64,000 nt of DNA from Candidatus Kapaibacterium sp. (GTDB taxonomy: Bacteria > Bacteroidota > Ignavibacteria > Kapaibacteriales > UBA2268): contig JAPLFL010000088.1 of NCBI GenBank assembly GCA_026390695.1, positions 1 through 64,000 on the forward strand, read 5' to 3'. Each line of letters opens with the position of its first letter. Within the stretch, counting starts at the first letter, position 1. The notes under the pieces were generated by a model. It searched no databases and was not told the origin of the DNA. It worked only from the letters and a program-made list of their open reading frames with translations. This document shows, one piece after another, positions 7,340-28,860 of this stretch. The translations under genes were made by a program, and so were the position numbers.

Positions 7340-10300
7340 ATGTTTAATAAAATTATTGCTTATTCAATAAAAAACAAACTAATTATTGGAATTTTTACGA
7401 TTGCATTAATTTCTTTTGGAGTATATTCGTTGATAAATATTCCTATTGATGCAGTTCCCGATATTACTAATAATCAGGTACAAGTAATTACAGTGGCTCC
7501 TACTCTTGCATCTCAAGAGGCTGAACAGTTCCTGACTTATCCGATAGAAAAATCTATGGCTACCATTCCAAATGTGATTGAGCTTCGTTCAATCTCTCGA
7601 TTTGGATTGTCGCTTGTTACTGTTGTATTTAAGGATAATGTTGATATGTACTTAGCCAGGCAACTCGTCGCCCAGCAGATAAAAGAAGCTGAAGAGAATA
7701 TTCCTCACGGTATTGGCAGGCCAGAATTAGCACCTGTCAGTACTGGATTGGGAGAAATTTATCAGTATCTAATTCAAGTTAAAAAAGGTTATGAAAATAA
7801 ATATTCATTGACCGATCTTAGGACAGTTCAAGATTGGATAGTCAAACGTCAGTTGTTAGGAACTCCCGGAGTTGCTGAGGTCAGCTCTCTTGGTGGATTT
7901 ATTAAACAATATGAAGTGTCTGTAAATCCCGATCGGCTAAGGTCAATGAATACCTCGATAATTGAAATTTATAACGCACTTGAAAAGAATAATGAGAATA
8001 CTGGAGCCGCATATATTGACAAAAAGCCGAACTCATATTTTATCAGAGGTATGGGATTAGTGAGTTCACTAAAAGACATTGAAAAAATTGTTATAAAAAA
8101 TGTAAATTCTGTTCCTTTGCTGATCAAGGATGTGGCGACTGTTCGTATGAGTTGTTCGGTGCGTTATGGTGCCGTAACAAAAGACGGTACAGGTGAGGTT
8201 GTTGGTGGAATGGTTATGATGCTAAAGGATGAAAACTCAGGTCAGGTGATTGAACGTGTGAAAGAAAAAATTAAATTAATTGAAAAGAATTTACCTATAG
8301 GTTTGTATATTGAGCCTTTCATCGATCGTACTAACCTTGTTGACAGAACGATACGAACCGTTACAACAAATTTGATTGAAGGTGGACTGATAGTTATATT
8401 CGTACTTGTACTATTTCTGGGCAATATGAGAGCCGGATTGCTCGTAGCTTCTGTATTACCACTGTCAATGTTATTTACATTAACAATGATGTATTCGTTC
8501 GGAATATCAGGTAATCTGATGAGCCTTGGAGCGATAGATTTTGGATTAATAGTTGACGCTGCAGTAATAATAGTAGAAAGTATTGTTTTTCGATTAGAGC
8601 ATTATAAGGAAAAAGATAATTTATCTCAATCGGAAATGGATATTCATGTTTTTAAGTCAGCATCAAAAATACGTCAATCAGCATCTTTTGGTGAATTAAT
8701 TATCTTGATAGTATATCTGCCTATTTTAAGTTTAGTTGGTATCGAAGGGAAAATGTTCAGACCAATGGCTATGACTGTGGGTTTTGCGATAATCGGGGCA
8801 TTTATTTTGTCTTTAACTTATGTGCCTATGATGAGTTCAATTTTTCTCGATAAAAAATTATTAAACAAAAAACACATTTCCGATCAAATAATGAAATTTT
8901 TTCAAACGATTTATTCTCCATTATTAATTTTTGCATTAAAAAGAAAGGCAATTATCGTTGGAACAACTTTGATAATCTTAGCTTTATCGGTAATTGGATT
9001 TATCCGCTTAGGTGGTGAATTTATTCCAAGACTTGAAGAAGGTGATCTACTGATTTTGGGGAAAATTAAAGCTGGAAGTTCAATATCACAAACAATTGAA
9101 ACAAGTACAAAGATTGAAAAAATTCTAAAAAATAAATTTCCCGAAGTAAAATCCGCAGTATCCAAAATAGGAGTCGGAGAAATTCCAACCGATCCAACTC
9201 CGATGGAATCATGTGATATAGTTGTCTCACTTGAGCCTAAAAGCCTATGGAAATCAGCAAGTTCCTTAAATGAATTAATAGAGAAAATGCAAAAAGAATT
9301 ATCTGTTTTACCAGGTGCAAGTTATGAATTTTTACAGCCGATTGAAACTCGTTTCAGTGAATTAATGACAGGAACACGATCGGATATAGCTGTCAAAATT
9401 TACGGTGAAGATTTAAACCTTTTAACTGAAAAAGCTGAGGAAGCCAAAGCGATTATTCAGGATTTAAAAGGCATCGGTGATATTAAAGTGGAACAAATGA
9501 TTGGTTTGCCACATGTTCAAGTGAAGTTTAATCGTGATAAATTGGCTTTATATGGTCTGAATATCAAAGATTTGAGTGATGTGTTGAAGGCTGCATTTGC
9601 AGGAGCAAGTGCTGGTGTTATTTTTGAAGGTGATAGACGATTTGAACTTGTTGTTCGTCTTGATTCTTCTCACAGGCAAGAAATCTCAGATATTCGAGGT
9701 CTTTTTGTTCCATTAGCTTCCGGTGAACAAATCCCACTTGAACAAGTTGCCGATATTAATTATGAAGAAGGGCCACAGCAAATTGCTCGGGACGATGGTA
9801 AACGTAGAATAACCATCGGAATTAACGTAAGAAACAGAGATGTCCAATCTTTAGTCAGGGAAATTACTGAGAAAATCGAAAAGCAGTTGAAATTACCTGC
9901 TAATTATTACGTTACTTATGGCGGCCAGTTTCAGAATCTTGTAGAAGCAAATAAACGTTTAACTTATGCAGTACCTCTTGCTTTGATTTTGATTTTATTA
10001 ATATTATTTTTTACATTTAAATCTATAAGGGAAACACTGTTGATTTTTACTGCTATTCCATTTTCTGCAGTAGGTGGTATTGTTGCACTAAATATCAGAG
10101 AAATGCCGTTTAGTATTTCTGCCGGAGTTGGTTTTATAGCATTGTTTGGGGTCTCTGTTTTAAATGGAATTGTACTCATTTCGCATCTGAACAGCTTGGA
10201 AAAAGCGGGTTATGATGATTTATATAATAGAATAATAAAAGGAACGAAAGATAGACTCAGACCGGTATTGATGACTGCTTTTGTTGCTTCATTCGGATTT

Positions 10301-11671
10301 TTGCCCATGGCACTTTCTTCTTCTCCGGGTGCTGAAGTACAAAAACCGGTAGCGACAGTTGTAATTGGTGGTTTAATTAGTTCCACTTTCCTGACATTAA
10401 TAGTTCTGCCTATTTTATATTCAATATTTTCAAAAAAAATAAAATCAGGTGATGGAAATATATTAGCAAATAATGTTATTGGTATAATTTTCTTATTTAT
10501 AGCATCAACCGGTTTATATGGTAAAGATTTAAAGAAAGAAATATCCTTAGAAAAAGCAATACAGATCGGACTGGTGAATAATTTAGCTGTAAAGGTAGGG
10601 AATCAGGAAATTCAAGTACAGGAAAAGCTATCAGCAACTGCATTAGATTTAGGAAAAACAACATTTAGCCTTAATTATGGCCAGATTAATACTCCAAAAA
10701 ATGATAATGAAATTGGTATCAGTCAAAAATTTTCTTTTCCAACTTTGTATTCAAGTCAATCGGATTATTATGCTCAAAATATTTTAAGCTATGAGACAAG
10801 GCACAATATTATTAAAAATAATTTGATAAAAGAGATTAAATCTGTTTATTTTAGGCTTTTAATATTAAACCAAAGACTTGAATTAGTAAATCATCAGGAT
10901 TCAATTTATTCAGAGTATCTTCAAAAAGTTGATATGAAATTTCAAAAAGGCGAGACTTCTTCACTCGAAAATGCAAATGCTAAGTCAGAATTTTATGATA
11001 TAAAAGATCATAAGAGATTAATTGAAAATGAAATTTCAATAAATGAAAATAAATTGAATGTACTTATTTCGGATAAGCAGAACTATACTATAAATCTGCT
11101 TGAAGATTATATAAAAAAGCTTAACGTTCCCGATCAGTCAATGATTGCCAACTTTCCCGAATTAAAATTAGCTGAACAAAATATCAAGTTAAATAAATCT
11201 CTTAGTTCTATTGAGCGAAATAAACTAATGCCTGAGTTTTCATTGGGATATGTAAATAAGTCATTTACTGATTCATATATTGGCCGGTTTTCTGTTTATG
11301 AATTTAGTATTGATATTCCAATATGGTTTATGCCTCAGAACAAAAGAGTTGAAGCTTCTGAGTTAAATGAAGAAATTGCTAAGATAAATTATCAGTATTT
11401 AAAGAATGGTTTATTAGCAGAAATACAAACAAATATTGACAGTTATAAGCTTTACTTAATACAAATTGAAACTTTTAAACAATATAGACTTCCTCAAGCA
11501 ACCCTAATTGAAAAAAATACCTTAGCAAGTTATTCAGCCGGTGATATAGGATATTTGGAATATTTGCAAAACCTAAAACGTTCTTTTGATATTCGTGAAT
11601 CTTTTTTCACAAGTATTGATACCTTAAATCAAATTATAATAAACATTGAATATTTAACAGGAGTGAAATAA
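7340..11671 (+). CDS. czcA: CzcA-type heavy-metal RND pump fused to a TolC-like outer-membrane channel
   Basis: The first about 1035 residues form a complete heavy-metal-efflux RND transporter of the inner membrane, driven by proton influx. Transmembrane helix 4 carries D400, D406 and E413 in the order DFGLIVDAAVIIVE, matching the CzcA proton-relay residues. The porter region reads ELMTGTRSD and EGDRRFELVVRL, closer to CzcA (divalent Zn/Co/Cd) than to CusA with its copper-binding methionines. After the last RND helix a hydrophobic segment (about 1041-1062) leads into a TolC/CzcC-like domain (about 1065-1443) with the long helical hairpins of an outer-membrane factor. Pump-plus-channel fusions of about 1440 residues occur in Bacteroidota; topology requires the extra segment to act as an internal export signal or anchor. 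The adaptor gene begins directly at the next base after the stop. Confidence 0.9.
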   Translation: MFNKIIAYSIKNKLIIGIFTIALISFGVYSLINIPIDAVPDITNNQVQVITVAPTLASQEAEQFLTYPIEKSMATIPNVIELRSISRFGLSLVTVVFKDNVDMYLARQLVAQQIKEAEENIPHGIGRPELAPVSTGLGEIYQYLIQVKKGYENKYSLTDLRTVQDWIVKRQLLGTPGVAEVSSLGGFIKQYEVSVNPDRLRSMNTSIIEIYNALEKNNENTGAAYIDKKPNSYFIRGMGLVSSLKDIEKIVIKNVNSVPLLIKDVATVRMSCSVRYGAVTKDGTGEVVGGMVMMLKDENSGQVIERVKEKIKLIEKNLPIGLYIEPFIDRTNLVDRTIRTVTTNLIEGGLIVIFVLVLFLGNMRAGLLVASVLPLSMLFTLTMMYSFGISGNLMSLGAIDFGLIVDAAVIIVESIVFRLEHYKEKDNLSQSEMDIHVFKSASKIRQSASFGELIILIVYLPILSLVGIEGKMFRPMAMTVGFAIIGAFILSLTYVPMMSSIFLDKKLLNKKHISDQIMKFFQTIYSPLLIFALKRKAIIVGTTLIILALSVIGFIRLGGEFIPRLEEGDLLILGKIKAGSSISQTIETSTKIEKILKNKFPEVKSAVSKIGVGEIPTDPTPMESCDIVVSLEPKSLWKSASSLNELIEKMQKELSVLPGASYEFLQPIETRFSELMTGTRSDIAVKIYGEDLNLLTEKAEEAKAIIQDLKGIGDIKVEQMIGLPHVQVKFNRDKLALYGLNIKDLSDVLKAAFAGASAGVIFEGDRRFELVVRLDSSHRQEISDIRGLFVPLASGEQIPLEQVADINYEEGPQQIARDDGKRRITIGINVRNRDVQSLVREITEKIEKQLKLPANYYVTYGGQFQNLVEANKRLTYAVPLALILILLILFFTFKSIRETLLIFTAIPFSAVGGIVALNIREMPFSISAGVGFIALFGVSVLNGIVLISHLNSLEKAGYDDLYNRIIKGTKDRLRPVLMTAFVASFGFLPMALSSSPGAEVQKPVATVVIGGLISSTFLTLIVLPILYSIFSKKIKSGDGNILANNVIGIIFLFIASTGLYGKDLKKEISLEKAIQIGLVNNLAVKVGNQEIQVQEKLSATALDLGKTTFSLNYGQINTPKNDNEIGISQKFSFPTLYSSQSDYYAQNILSYETRHNIIKNNLIKEIKSVYFRLLILNQRLELVNHQDSIYSEYLQKVDMKFQKGETSSLENANAKSEFYDIKDHKRLIENEISINENKLNVLISDKQNYTINLLEDYIKKLNVPDQSMIANFPELKLAEQNIKLNKSLSSIERNKLMPEFSLGYVNKSFTDSYIGRFSVYEFSIDIPIWFMPQNKRVEASELNEEIAKINYQYLKNGLLAEIQTNIDSYKLYLIQIETFKQYRLPQATLIEKNTLASYSAGDIGYLEYLQNLKRSFDIRESFFTSIDTLNQIIINIEYLTGVK

Positions 11672-12937
11672 ATGAAAATGAAATTATCTGTTTTAACGAT
11701 TATTATACCTCTAATTCTGGTATTTCAATCATGTAATAAATCTGATGATGCAAAAGATACAAAATCACATCAAGAAGAACATAAAGAAAAAAATACAAAT
11801 TCTGTAGAATTGAGTGAAATTCAATTTATTAATGCCGGAATTATATTAGGCAATTTTGAAAATATAGAATTAGCTGAAGCTCTTAAAGTTACTGGAATAT
11901 TGAGAGTACCACCTCAAAATCAAGCTTCGGTTTCAAGTTTTATTGCAGGAATAATAAAAAGTATTGATGTAAGTGAAGGCGCTTATATTAATAAGGGACA
12001 AATACTTGCCAGTATCAGCCATCCAGATATTATCAAATTGCAACAGGATTACTTGGAATCGAAATCCAATCTTGAATTTCTTCAAAATGATTATGATCGG
12101 CAATTGGAATTACAGAAAAATAACGTAAATGCTGGAAAGACATTTCAGGATGCTCAATCAAAATTTAATATTATAAAGGCTAAAGTTGCATCTCTTGAAC
12201 ATCAGCTCACAATGCTGTCAATACCTTTTGAAAAGTTAAATGATAAGAATATTATCAATTCTGTTAATATCAAATCTCCGATTTCCGGTTATATCGGTAG
12301 TATAAATATTAAAATTGGCTCTTATATAGAACCCAATAAAGAAATTTTCAGTATAATTGATAATAATAAATTGCATATAGATCTAAATATTTATGAAAAG
12401 GATATGACTCGTGTTCAAATTGGGCAAAAAGTTAATCTTGTAATCACAAATCAGCCCAATAAACATATTGAAGCAAAAATATTTAGCCTGGATAAATCTT
12501 TTGCTAACGAAAGCAAATCCATTATTGCTCATGCCGATATTTGCAGTGGTGATCGAAATGGTTTAATCGCAGGAATGTTTTTGAATGCCATAGTGCATGA
12601 GACTGGAAGAGAGTCATTGGCATTACCGGAGGATGCAGTAGTCCGGCTCGAGGGTAAGGAATATATCTTCATTACAATTGATGATTGCTGTGCTGAAGAT
12701 GCTAAAAAGGAAACCAAGAATCAAGAATCAAAATCCAAAACAGAAGAGAAATCAGTTACTAAAAGTTACTCATTTAAATTGGCTGAAGTGAAAACCGGCA
12801 CTCGCGAACTCGGATTTGTTCAGATTCTACCGATAAATAAAATACCCGATGGCTCTCAAATTGCTATCAAAGGTGCTTATTTTATATTATCTCAGTTGAA
12901 GCTTGGCGAAGGTGGCGGTTGCGTGGATGATATTTAA
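11672..12937 (+). CDS. czcB: Periplasmic adaptor (membrane fusion protein) of the metal efflux pump, lipoprotein
   Basis: The 421-residue protein has a lipoprotein signal (lipobox FQSC, cysteine 21), then the RND adaptor order: an N-terminal beta segment, a lipoyl-like half (SVSSFIAGIIKSIDVSEGAYINKGQILASI), a helical hairpin (about 128-188), the second lipoyl half (NIKSPISGYIGSI), and beta-barrel/membrane-proximal domains. Odd features are an insertion with a Cys-Cys pair and many charges (DDCCAEDAKKE, about 331-355) and a Gly-Cys end (GEGGGCVDDI); both could touch metal, but that is inferred. Start ATG is the base after the pump stop, with AGGAGTG overlapping the end of the pump gene, so the two are tightly coupled. 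With the fused pump-channel it would complete a tripartite efflux system from two polypeptides. Confidence 0.88.
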   Translation: MKMKLSVLTIIIPLILVFQSCNKSDDAKDTKSHQEEHKEKNTNSVELSEIQFINAGIILGNFENIELAEALKVTGILRVPPQNQASVSSFIAGIIKSIDVSEGAYINKGQILASISHPDIIKLQQDYLESKSNLEFLQNDYDRQLELQKNNVNAGKTFQDAQSKFNIIKAKVASLEHQLTMLSIPFEKLNDKNIINSVNIKSPISGYIGSINIKIGSYIEPNKEIFSIIDNNKLHIDLNIYEKDMTRVQIGQKVNLVITNQPNKHIEAKIFSLDKSFANESKSIIAHADICSGDRNGLIAGMFLNAIVHETGRESLALPEDAVVRLEGKEYIFITIDDCCAEDAKKETKNQESKSKTEEKSVTKSYSFKLAEVKTGTRELGFVQILPINKIPDGSQIAIKGAYFILSQLKLGEGGGCVDDI

Positions 12938-13144: not shown

Positions 13145-13690
13145 ATGAAATTAGCTTCACAGGAATTATCAACAGAGCATAAAACTATATTGCTCGCAAT
13201 CAAGGTTGTTGAAAAAATCTGCACTATTTTACGTGCTGATGGTGAGATAGATGTCCGCGATGCACAAAATATAATTGACTTCATCCGAATTTTTGCTGAT
13301 AAATTTCATCACGGCAAAGAGGAAGGTCTGTATTTTCCTGCAATGGTCGAAGCAGGGTTCAGCAATGAGTTTGGGCCGGTTGCAGTTATGCTTTCCGAGC
13401 ATGTGGAAGGGCGCAGTTATGTTAGCATGATGCAGGAAGCAATATCCGGTGATGTTCTTGATAAACAGAAATATGCCAAAGGCGCTTCTTCTTATGCTTT
13501 TCTTTTGACCAGTCATATTGACAAAGAGGATAATATCTTATATCCTATGGGTGACGGTAGGTTAACAGCACAGCAAAATAATGAATTGTTAGAGAAATTC
13601 AAGCATTTCGAAGAACAAGTGATAGGGAAGGACAAGTACCAATATTATTTCGATTTAGTAGCGTCACTTCAGACAAAATATTTGAGTTAA
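13145..13690 (+). CDS. Hemerythrin-like di-iron protein
   Basis: The 181-residue protein is a hemerythrin HHE four-helix bundle. Visible metal ligands are H12 (STEHKTI), H56 with E60 (HHGKEEG), H86 (SEHVEG) and H124 with E128 (HIDKED). The motif set H...HxxxE...H...HxxxE is that of cytosolic bacterial hemerythrin-like proteins, which bind a di-iron centre and have roles in oxygen, nitric oxide or redox sensing and iron-sulfur repair. The specific role here cannot be read. A strong AAAGGGGT ribosome-binding site precedes the ATG, and a good intrinsic terminator follows at 13785-13810. The 207-base gap upstream is AT-rich and presumably carries its promoter, so it looks like a single-gene unit. 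Confidence 0.85.
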   Translation: MKLASQELSTEHKTILLAIKVVEKICTILRADGEIDVRDAQNIIDFIRIFADKFHHGKEEGLYFPAMVEAGFSNEFGPVAVMLSEHVEGRSYVSMMQEAISGDVLDKQKYAKGASSYAFLLTSHIDKEDNILYPMGDGRLTAQQNNELLEKFKHFEEQVIGKDKYQYYFDLVASLQTKYLS

Positions 13691-13886: not shown

Positions 13887-14432
13887 TTGAAATAGATTAT
13901 AAATGTTTTGGAGAGATTTAATAATATTTTGAAATATTTCGTGGGTATTTTGATTATGTTCGTAGATATATTGAAGGGTTTCTTTTATATTATGAAAAGA
14001 TTCTTGAATGTCTTGAAAGCGTTCGATAGATATATGAATACGTTCAAAGATGTTTTGAAAGCGTTCGAAGGTATTTTGAATACGTTCAAAGATGTTTTGA
14101 AAGCGTTCGATAGATATATGAATACGTTCAAAGATATTTTGAAAGCGTTCGAAGGTATTTTGAAGACGTTCAAAGATATTTTGAAGAACTTCAAAAGGTC
14201 ATCGAAAGCATTCAAAACCATTTTGAACGTATTCATAGAGCCTTCGAAAGCATTCATAAGTAAATTGAATGGCTTCAAAAGGTCATTGAAAGATTGCATA
14301 AGTATATTGAAAGACTTCAAAAGGTCATTGAAAGATTGCATAAATATATTGAAAGACTTCAAAAGGTCATTGAAAGATTTCGATAATCAATTTAATGTAA
14401 TCAAAGAATCATCGAAAGTTTTCAAAAGGGAT
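13887..14432. repeat. Tandem array of 26 units of 21 bp
   Basis: Twenty-six consecutive units of exactly 21 bp fill 13887-14432 with no spacers. Most units follow TTGAA-N4/5-TTC with a TTCAA version giving internal dyad symmetry; for example the unit at 14181 contains the palindrome TTGAAGAACTTCAA. Units diverge at both ends and are nearly identical in the middle. An 84-bp block of four units (14013-14096) is repeated at 14097-14180, and a 42-bp pair (14286-14327) at 14328-14369, so the array has grown by steps of whole units. Because 21 is a multiple of three, one frame stays open on each strand, giving Leu/Phe/Ile heptads rightward. Twenty-one bp is two helical turns, so equivalent bases face the same side. 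Confidence 0.95.
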
Positions 14433-14666
14433 TTTAATTCATATTTAGTGCTATTCTTTGAAAATGTCATTACTGCATGCGCACAAATGACAGCAAAGCA
14501 ATTGACTGGGATTCCTGCATACGCACAAATGACAGCAAAGCAACTGATGGGGATTCCTGCATACGCACAAATGACAGCAAAGCAACTGATGGGGATTCCT
14601 GCATACGCACAAATGACAGCAAAGCAACTGATGTGGATTCCTGCAAACGCAGGAATGACAGTTTAG
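13908..14666 (+). CDS. Doubtful reading frame over the tandem repeats
   Basis: A 252-codon frame starting at a TTG runs through the 21-bp array and the 42-bp array. The first about 175 residues form heptads with hydrophobic residues at positions 1, 4 and 7 (for example LKAFDRY, MNTFKDV), which would make an amphipathic helix; the remainder repeats a 14-residue unit containing AYAQMTAKQ. There is no ribosome-binding site, no domain, and the opposite strand is also open over 13985-14362 as expected for a repeat whose period is divisible by three. I think it is more likely non-coding, but translation cannot be excluded. Confidence 0.2.
   Translation: MERFNNILKYFVGILIMFVDILKGFFYIMKRFLNVLKAFDRYMNTFKDVLKAFEGILNTFKDVLKAFDRYMNTFKDILKAFEGILKTFKDILKNFKRSSKAFKTILNVFIEPSKAFISKLNGFKRSLKDCISILKDFKRSLKDCINILKDFKRSLKDFDNQFNVIKESSKVFKRDFNSYLVLFFENVITACAQMTAKQLTGIPAYAQMTAKQLMGIPAYAQMTAKQLMGIPAYAQMTAKQLMWIPANAGMTV
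14465..14661. repeat. Four tandem 42-bp units built from a dispersed-element arm
   Basis: Four units of 42 bp (14481-14522, 14523-14564, 14565-14606, 14607-14648) each join GCACAAATGACAG to a 17-base linker with AAAGCAACTGATG and to ATTCCTGCATAC. Flanking half-arms (14465-14480 and 14649-14661) complete an inverted arrangement. The arm is the same as in the dispersed elements at 6543-6821, so here the arm has been amplified head to tail instead of occurring as one inverted pair. The three inner copies differ by at most a few bases, which suggests recent expansion. Confidence 0.9.
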
Positions 14667-14789: not shown

Positions 14790-15050
14790 TTAGTTCTGTG
14801 AAATTTCAATACTTTGTTCAAGATGCTCAAATTTCTTGAGAACATTATCCTCGAATAACTTAACCAAACTATTGACACATTTTTCTAAATTATCATTATC
14901 CTGTTTGTTAGCTTTAATACTTTTTTTTATTCTCTCAATCTCCTGGACAATATTGAGATCAACTTGTTCGGAAATTTCATCGTTAGCAAGCAAATCCGAA
15001 ATCCGACTATGCAGATGATCGAGAAACATTTCAAGACTTTCTTTTTCCAT
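14790..15050 (-). CDS. Small coiled-coil protein, function unknown
   Basis: The 86-residue product is almost entirely charged and helical, with heptad-like leucines and isoleucines (LEMFLDHLHSRISDLL, QEIERIKKSI, LEKCVNSLVKLFED). It has no signal peptide or membrane segment, so it is probably cytosolic and oligomeric. The start ATG lies 31 bases after the stop of the outer-membrane protein gene on the same strand, suggesting it is the last gene of that unit. I do not recognise a family. A perfect hairpin lies about 80 bases after its stop. Confidence 0.5.
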   Translation of the reverse strand: MEKESLEMFLDHLHSRISDLLANDEISEQVDLNIVQEIERIKKSIKANKQDNDNLEKCVNSLVKLFEDNVLKKFEHLEQSIEISQN

Positions 15051-28573: not shown

Positions 28574-28599
28574 AAATAGTAGAATTGCAATAATAGCCG

Positions 28600-28742
28600 T
28601 TCGTGATACTTTCGGGAGCCTTCAAAATACTTTCGGGAACTCCCGAAAGCTCCACGAACGATCCCAAAAGCTCCACGAACGATCCTGAAAGCTCCACGAA
28701 CGATCCCGAAACCTTCACGAACGATCCCGAAAGCTCATTGAA
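28600..28742. repeat. Second 21-bp tandem array, with an orientation switch
   Basis: In the gap after the GH20 gene there are two units (28600-28620, 28621-28641) of a 21-bp repeat in one orientation and five (28638-28658 onward to 28742) in the other, meeting at CTTTCGGGA (28630-28638) / TCCCGAAAG (28641-28649). Direct units share CGATCCCGAAAGCTCCACG with few changes. The sequence differs from the array at 13887-14432, but the period is the same. The open frame on the minus strand over it (heptads GSFVELS) has no ribosome-binding site and is not called a gene. The remaining bases to 28860 are AT-rich with nothing clear. Confidence 0.9.
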
Positions 28743-28860
28743 CAAGAATTATATAATTATTTAACTTTTTTCCCAAAATCTCATTAGAATTATTCTGTTT
28801 CGAAATGATAATCAAATTCCAATCAATTATAATTTATTTATCATCTTTGCAAAATTCTAT

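Follow-up and report, generated by a model that had tools for sequence, protein, structure and literature searches.

The window, as we call the whole 64,000-nucleotide stretch of Candidatus Kapaibacterium sp. DNA analysed here, carries an array of 26 contiguous 21-bp units between the genes for a hemerythrin-domain protein and an 86-aa protein, together with an adjoining array built of a different repeat and a second, more distant 21-bp array. Throughout this work genes are ORFs and a start is the first methionine. The features that matter for the argument are as follows.

13145-13690, + strand: hemerythrin-domain protein (PF01814, E 4e-15), upstream neighbour of the array
13887-14180, + strand: left half of the array, units 1-14, with the leader TTTCGTGGGTATTTTGATTATGTTCGTAGATATATTGAAGGGTTTC common to the copies on contigs C21 and C23
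13908-14666, + strand: frame of 252 aa with a TTG start that stays open across the array, considered spurious
14013-14180, + strand: 84-bp block present twice (14013-14096 and 14097-14180), 81/84 identical
14181-14196, no strand: middle of the quasi-palindrome (TTGAAGAACTTCAAAA), with the best centres without gaps at 14176.5 and 14187
14197-14432, - strand: right half of the array, the remaining units, reverse-complementary to the left half with imperfections and an other-strand self-match within its own genome
14286-14369, + strand: 42-bp pair (14286-14327 and 14328-14369), 41/42 identical
14469-14661, + strand: adjoining array built of another dispersed repeat (ATTCCTGCATACGCACAAATGACAG..., ATTCCTGC..CGCACAAATGACAG), period 42 = 2 x 21, 4.6 copies, directly behind the 21-bp array
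14790-15050, - strand: 86-aa protein, downstream neighbour of the array, without a Pfam match and outside the array-linked protein family described below
28591-28757, no strand: second 21-bp array (TCCCGAAAGCTCCACGAACGA), intergenic, left units mirrored, related to locus L345 on contig C75

Upstream of this region, a 1443-aa ORF (7340-11671) appears to fuse a CusA-like RND pump with a TolC-like outer-membrane factor, and a HlyD/CusB-type gene follows right after it (11672-12937).

The array at 13887-14432 consists of direct units that fill 546 bp with zero indels, and its identity to itself at a lag of 21 is 0.61, compared with 0.30 +/- 0.02 after shuffling (z 16.3, or 13.7 with shuffles of 3-mer blocks). 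A sequence-only reading of this DNA had described such an unbroken run of 26 units with an exact period, with TTGAA and TTCAA half sites in most of them and two internally copied blocks, and we could reproduce each of these observations: the run stands at z ~14-16 over shuffles, 19 of the 26 units match at least four of the five bases of both half sites at a distance of four bases, 17 units contain an exact TTGAA, and the 84-bp block and the 42-bp pair are evidently recent duplications of four units and two units, respectively. Units at the edges, which it described as diverged, mostly agree less well with the consensus (0.52-0.71) than those in the left-central part (up to 0.86). That reading did not include the mirror symmetry of the array, the gene family to which such arrays are linked or the genome-wide set of arrays, and the array viewed alone as an odd repeat conceals its linkage to a class.

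That class became visible in the window's own genome (G000), a 4.6-Mb draft of which 0.82 Mb (821 kb) of stretches were read as a sample. These 821 kb contain 53 tandem arrays 60 bp or longer, 41 of them with a period of 21n (21, 42, 63, 84 and so on; p ~1e-43 against 1/21), and 25 of 28 array loci are intergenic in a genome with about 15% intergenic DNA; two sampled arrays, L201 and L203, lie within ORFs. The class accounts for much of the genome's 21-bp repeat content, and lags of 21, 42, 63, 84 and 105 are still in excess outside the arrays (29/84). Units can be predicted across loci, at 8.48 bits per unit in leave-one-out comparison versus at most 4.93 after shuffling, and the units of different loci in this genome evidently have a common ancestor or a common constraint. 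One profile of window-type arrays also matches the gene-linked arrays at C61:73550, C53:30530, C121:95763 and C92:16045, and a window-type unit recurs upstream of family genes in two further genomes, G043 and G114. Scanning the genome's contigs with TTTTGATTATGTTCGT returned 117 chance-like matches and is too unspecific.

The sequence-only reading had staked its case on finding the period in relatives or a variable length, and both were found: the period recurs, and the similar copies on C21 and C23 differ by one whole 21-bp unit in the left arm. Its recommended search for the half sites in related genomes gave a more restricted answer, in that TGAA-N4-TTCA at 21-bp spacing, sought in 391 genomes with a reversed control, forms strong arrays only in G000, G354, G707 and G511 and elsewhere shows a small excess over the control. 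The dyad arrays in G354 (L320, 1412-1750), which carries the gene family as well, and in G511 (C2:201634-201792) keep the 21-bp period while their centre and spacer vary. In G202, a genome from another family of the phylum, a diverged intergenic 21-bp array (L321, 1440-1850) lies just ahead of an apparent YciE/DUF892-like gene.

We traced the linked gene family through the profile of window-type arrays, which led to locus L322 in the related genome G032; the array there immediately precedes a gene whose homologues in G043 and G114 also stand next to arrays of this kind. We then scored linkage as a dominant lag of 21 or 42, at 55% identity or more, in the 700 bp upstream. Of the checkable family copies in G000, 25 of 27 have a 21-bp array just upstream, compared with 13 of 389 background ORFs, family members among them (Fisher 2e-28). 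The association holds beyond this genome: among homologues found by protein alone, a lag of 21 or 42 ranks first of the 49 tested upstream of 25 of 27 and downstream of 5 of 24 (p ~6e-33 and ~1e-7), with the family present in 28 of the 391 sampled genomes of the class. In most copies the start codon is set off from the array by a short leader that is AT-rich and contains a Shine-Dalgarno-like stretch. The arrays are non-coding and intergenic, have a period fixed at 21n and are tied to the 5' side of one gene family across the class. Solitary arrays also occur, as at L241 in G043, an orphan whose unit is that of the gene-linked arrays L242 and L239, and an overlap between contigs C49 and C85 hints at a gene link for one mirrored array. 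Foreign repeats near family genes or arrays are likewise tandem with a period of 21 or 42; one lies 75 bp behind a family gene (L180, 9867-10233), another 5 bp behind (L192, 15880-15956) and a third lies beside an array or family gene (L188, 2843-2953).

The proteins behind these arrays constitute a large and unnamed family for which the array class provides a handle. Searching G000 by protein alone gave 50 matching stretches, including more than 30 separate and largely intact genes, with an N-terminal region of about 205 residues that is helical by inspection and carries the motifs MTRDL..FGIT and KYNDYVIYG, followed in this genome mostly by one or two FN3 domains; the same genome matches the sorting domain of type IX secretion at least 150 times, which marks a Bacteroidota-type (FCB) organism. 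Searches of Pfam, PADLOC and PHROGs recognised at most the FN3 part, and the family proteins showed no nuclease, polymerase or Rep domain and no match to a partition family. Most of the array-linked proteins tested have a recurrent sub-threshold match in NCBIfam to the PQLLE family NF052641 (best E 7.5e-8), at no more than 32.3 bits against a cut-off of 80 bits, and we call them PQLLE-like rather than members. PQLLE proteins above or near the cut-off are themselves preceded by 21/42-bp arrays at L428, L431, L432 and L433 and by a weaker one at L427, while the top lag is 41 at L429 and L437 and no array was seen at L434 or at two copies in another class. Three proteins (L373, L375, L376) combine FN3 domains very similar to those of other members with a clearly different N-terminal domain, as if that part had been exchanged, and L375 and L376 have a 21-bp array downstream as well. 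Distant homologues have no related neighbour genes in common. An origin of the family protein in phages or plasmids was considered and rejected, as viral contigs and plasmids gave no family match save one short phage match to part of an FN3-type domain.

A period of seven codons invites the interpretation that the units encode the heptads of a coiled coil, and the sequence-only reading had listed a translated amphipathic heptad protein among its options. Some frames do read as amphipathic heptads, L201 and L203 lie inside ORFs, and matches of the family f42 read as heptads in what appear to be true genes. By codon-position entropy, however, none of 38 arrays has unit variation with a codon period, stop codons interrupt the window's open frame in the copies on C24 and C87b, and all sense frames are closed in 30 of 45 gene-linked arrays (stops 17/9/11 at L393 and 32/17/11 at L379), and we consider a coding origin highly improbable and dropped it. 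The f42 loci L317, L318 and L319 have coiled-coil heptads of the FKDEMKD type whose 21-bp repeats are apparently truly coding, and they are a trap for searches by period. Intrinsically bent DNA, another listed option, was also rejected: in a wedge model, the two window halves are predicted to curve no more strongly than arrays with permuted columns (z 0.5 and -0.5). Of the listed options, a phased array for binding or regulation fares best, although the TTGAA/TTCAA sites belong to the window's own group of loci and do not extend to the class.

The window array differs from most gene-linked members in its mirror symmetry. Its right half repeats the left as an imperfect reverse complement, giving a quasi-palindrome of ~500 bp whose arms of ~250 nt pair around a centre near 14177-14188 with 62% Watson-Crick matches, a value equalled by 0 of 100 unit permutations. 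Because the halves lie in opposite orientation, a long imperfect hairpin is possible, and one strand folds better than expected both as RNA (z -7.2) and as DNA (z -10.0), with two ~7-nt blocks paired per unit, mismatched stretches between them and weaker pairing outward. Further mirrored copies lie on C21, C23, C24, C87 (two copies) and C94, with others seen by eye; their arms match at 0.58-0.76 within a locus versus ~0.4-0.6 between unrelated loci, and several mirrored arrays (window, C24, C87b) stand between convergent genes. These properties would suit a giant hairpin or cruciform that acts in RNA or DNA, for example as a 3'-end or insulating element, but most gene-linked arrays are unmirrored (L180, L195, L216), a search of Rfam found no match to the array near gathering scores, and the window arms pair about equally well in several registers (centres 14176.5, 14187 and 14134.5), so that we claim no pair-by-pair covariation. 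A structural role is in our judgement improbable, and we think it likelier that the window hairpin is a side effect of inverted duplication than that it is the function.

What the units preserve, and what they do not, bears on the mechanism. Unit sequence differs at almost every locus, and in close paralogues, whose proteins have score ratios of 0.72-0.82, units are often unrelated (0.43-0.62, with a baseline of 0.46), which argues against a family protein that reads its own array by sequence. A test for co-evolution between unit and protein gave a weak correlation, with a rho of 0.24 and nearly as much, 0.18, for the antisense control, on which we base no claim, and no 10.5-bp sub-period was seen in the arrays. 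In the orthologous arrays L409, L410 and L411, from three genera with 59-73% protein identity, a 16-base core TTAACTNNNYGGCGGAACGTN is nevertheless kept while the flanks have diverged, and the NNN within TTAACTNNNYGGCGGAACGTN mostly takes one form per array and varies from species to species; a conserved core, an NNN uniform per array and unconserved flanks together point to purifying selection on the unit with concerted evolution. Across 46 gene-linked arrays there is also a weak, orientation-specific motif, at 4.89 bits per unit versus at most 4.05 after shuffling. A fully sequence-independent period, which we had suspected from G000, is softened by the relatedness of units within that genome and by the orthologue core.

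A different reading of the constant period would treat the arrays as a footprint rather than as sites, left by a locus-tied activity that makes tandem duplications in 21-bp steps whatever the sequence. Unrelated units between paralogues under one constant period are what such an activity would produce, as are homogeneous cores with decayed edges, the excess of 21n lags outside arrays (29/84 in G000) and the tandem state, at 21 or 42, of foreign dispersed repeats beside arrays and family genes (14469-14661 in the window, L180, L192 and L188). The core kept between genera and the weak shared oriented motif nevertheless indicate selection on the unit itself, the family protein lacks a nuclease or polymerase domain, and we know of no enzyme that duplicates DNA in 21-bp steps; we regard this reading as unlikely, though it is the main rival and deserves to be taken seriously. 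Rapid unit turnover, decayed edges and a variable number of units would also be expected of inert minisatellites that accumulate in intergenic DNA by chance, as the sequence-only reading had allowed for an inert local repeat. An inert origin does not sit well with an exact period kept across the class, a 5' linkage to one family and a unit core kept between genera, and we find it quite improbable.

We favour the interpretation, at a probability of about 0.5, that non-coding 21-bp arrays form a class of cis-elements, normally placed just upstream of PQLLE-like genes and probably regulatory, to which the window array belongs as an inverted orphan. The window array has the exact 21-bp period without indels, is non-coding and intergenic, and has a unit related to gene-linked units; no family gene lies directly downstream, and a search of the window for one gave no match at E <= 1, which makes this copy an orphan rather than a full member. 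No family gene was found near the second array at 28591-28757 either. A family gene lost from the 3' side of the window array was considered and set aside, as the flank there resembles the leader of gene-linked arrays over 15 bases only, too weak a likeness. Since 21 bp corresponds to two turns of B-DNA, the units of a gene-linked array could serve as low-specificity sites on which a DNA-binding protein, either the family protein or a partner, would sit side by side on one helix face. Once occupied, the array would be a helically phased nucleoprotein stretch and would either regulate the promoter next to it or mark the locus, and duplication or loss of whole units (21, 42 or 84 bp) would leave the phase intact and make the array more uniform. 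We take the window copy itself to be probably a relic or decoy, which is as likely as any active role, and this copy may have no function of its own.

Non-coding elements usually either conserve their sequence or drift, whereas here the two-turn spacing is kept next to one gene family throughout the class while the repeat sequence is replaced from locus to locus. We tentatively suggest that the class represents a widespread and undescribed module, in which the gene for a helical PQLLE-like protein is preceded by a self-renewing two-turn array whose spacing, and not sequence, is inherited, and whose locus either writes 21-bp duplications or is read by a protein more sensitive to helical phase than to sequence. 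If this is true, DNA may be recognised by its periodic geometry, or an activity may exist that duplicates DNA in fixed 21-bp steps. We found no description of such a system in the openly reachable literature, a body that leaves most subscription papers and all preprints outside.

Several known systems resemble parts of this arrangement. Plasmid iterons, direct repeats of ~17-22 bp near rep genes that are bound by Rep, resemble the arrays in that direct repeats about two turns long adjoin a gene whose product is a candidate to bind them, but the arrays described here are chromosomal, occur at more than 30 loci per genome with a unit that varies by locus, have neither an adjacent Rep initiator or Rep-like domain nor one shared iteron sequence, and gave no plasmid match. 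Type II partition centromeres of the ParR/parC kind, with helically phased repeats upstream of parM, are similar in the placement of phased repeats ahead of a gene; the linked proteins here match no partition family, and there are many loci per chromosome, with a period of 21 and sequence turnover. In the fold-back elements of Drosophila (FB), inverted repeats are built of short tandem repeats, and the window copy likewise has two inverted arms of tandem repeats, as fold-back elements and MITEs do, but no transposase adjoins it, a target duplication is not apparent and the gene-linked members are mostly direct arrays. The closest relatives on the protein side are those of the PQLLE family NF052641, to which the match is weak: 21/42-bp arrays also precede its members above the cut-off, whereas the array-linked family falls below it. 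Coding heptads of the FKDEMKD type have the same 21-bp period but in open frames, unlike the non-coding arrays of this class. Lastly, the extrachromosomal archaeal Borg elements are reported to carry fast-evolving tandem repeats that originated independently at many loci (PMC9879509); the arrays described here likewise evolve fast at many loci, but in contrast to the Borg repeats they have a fixed period and are tied to one gene family.
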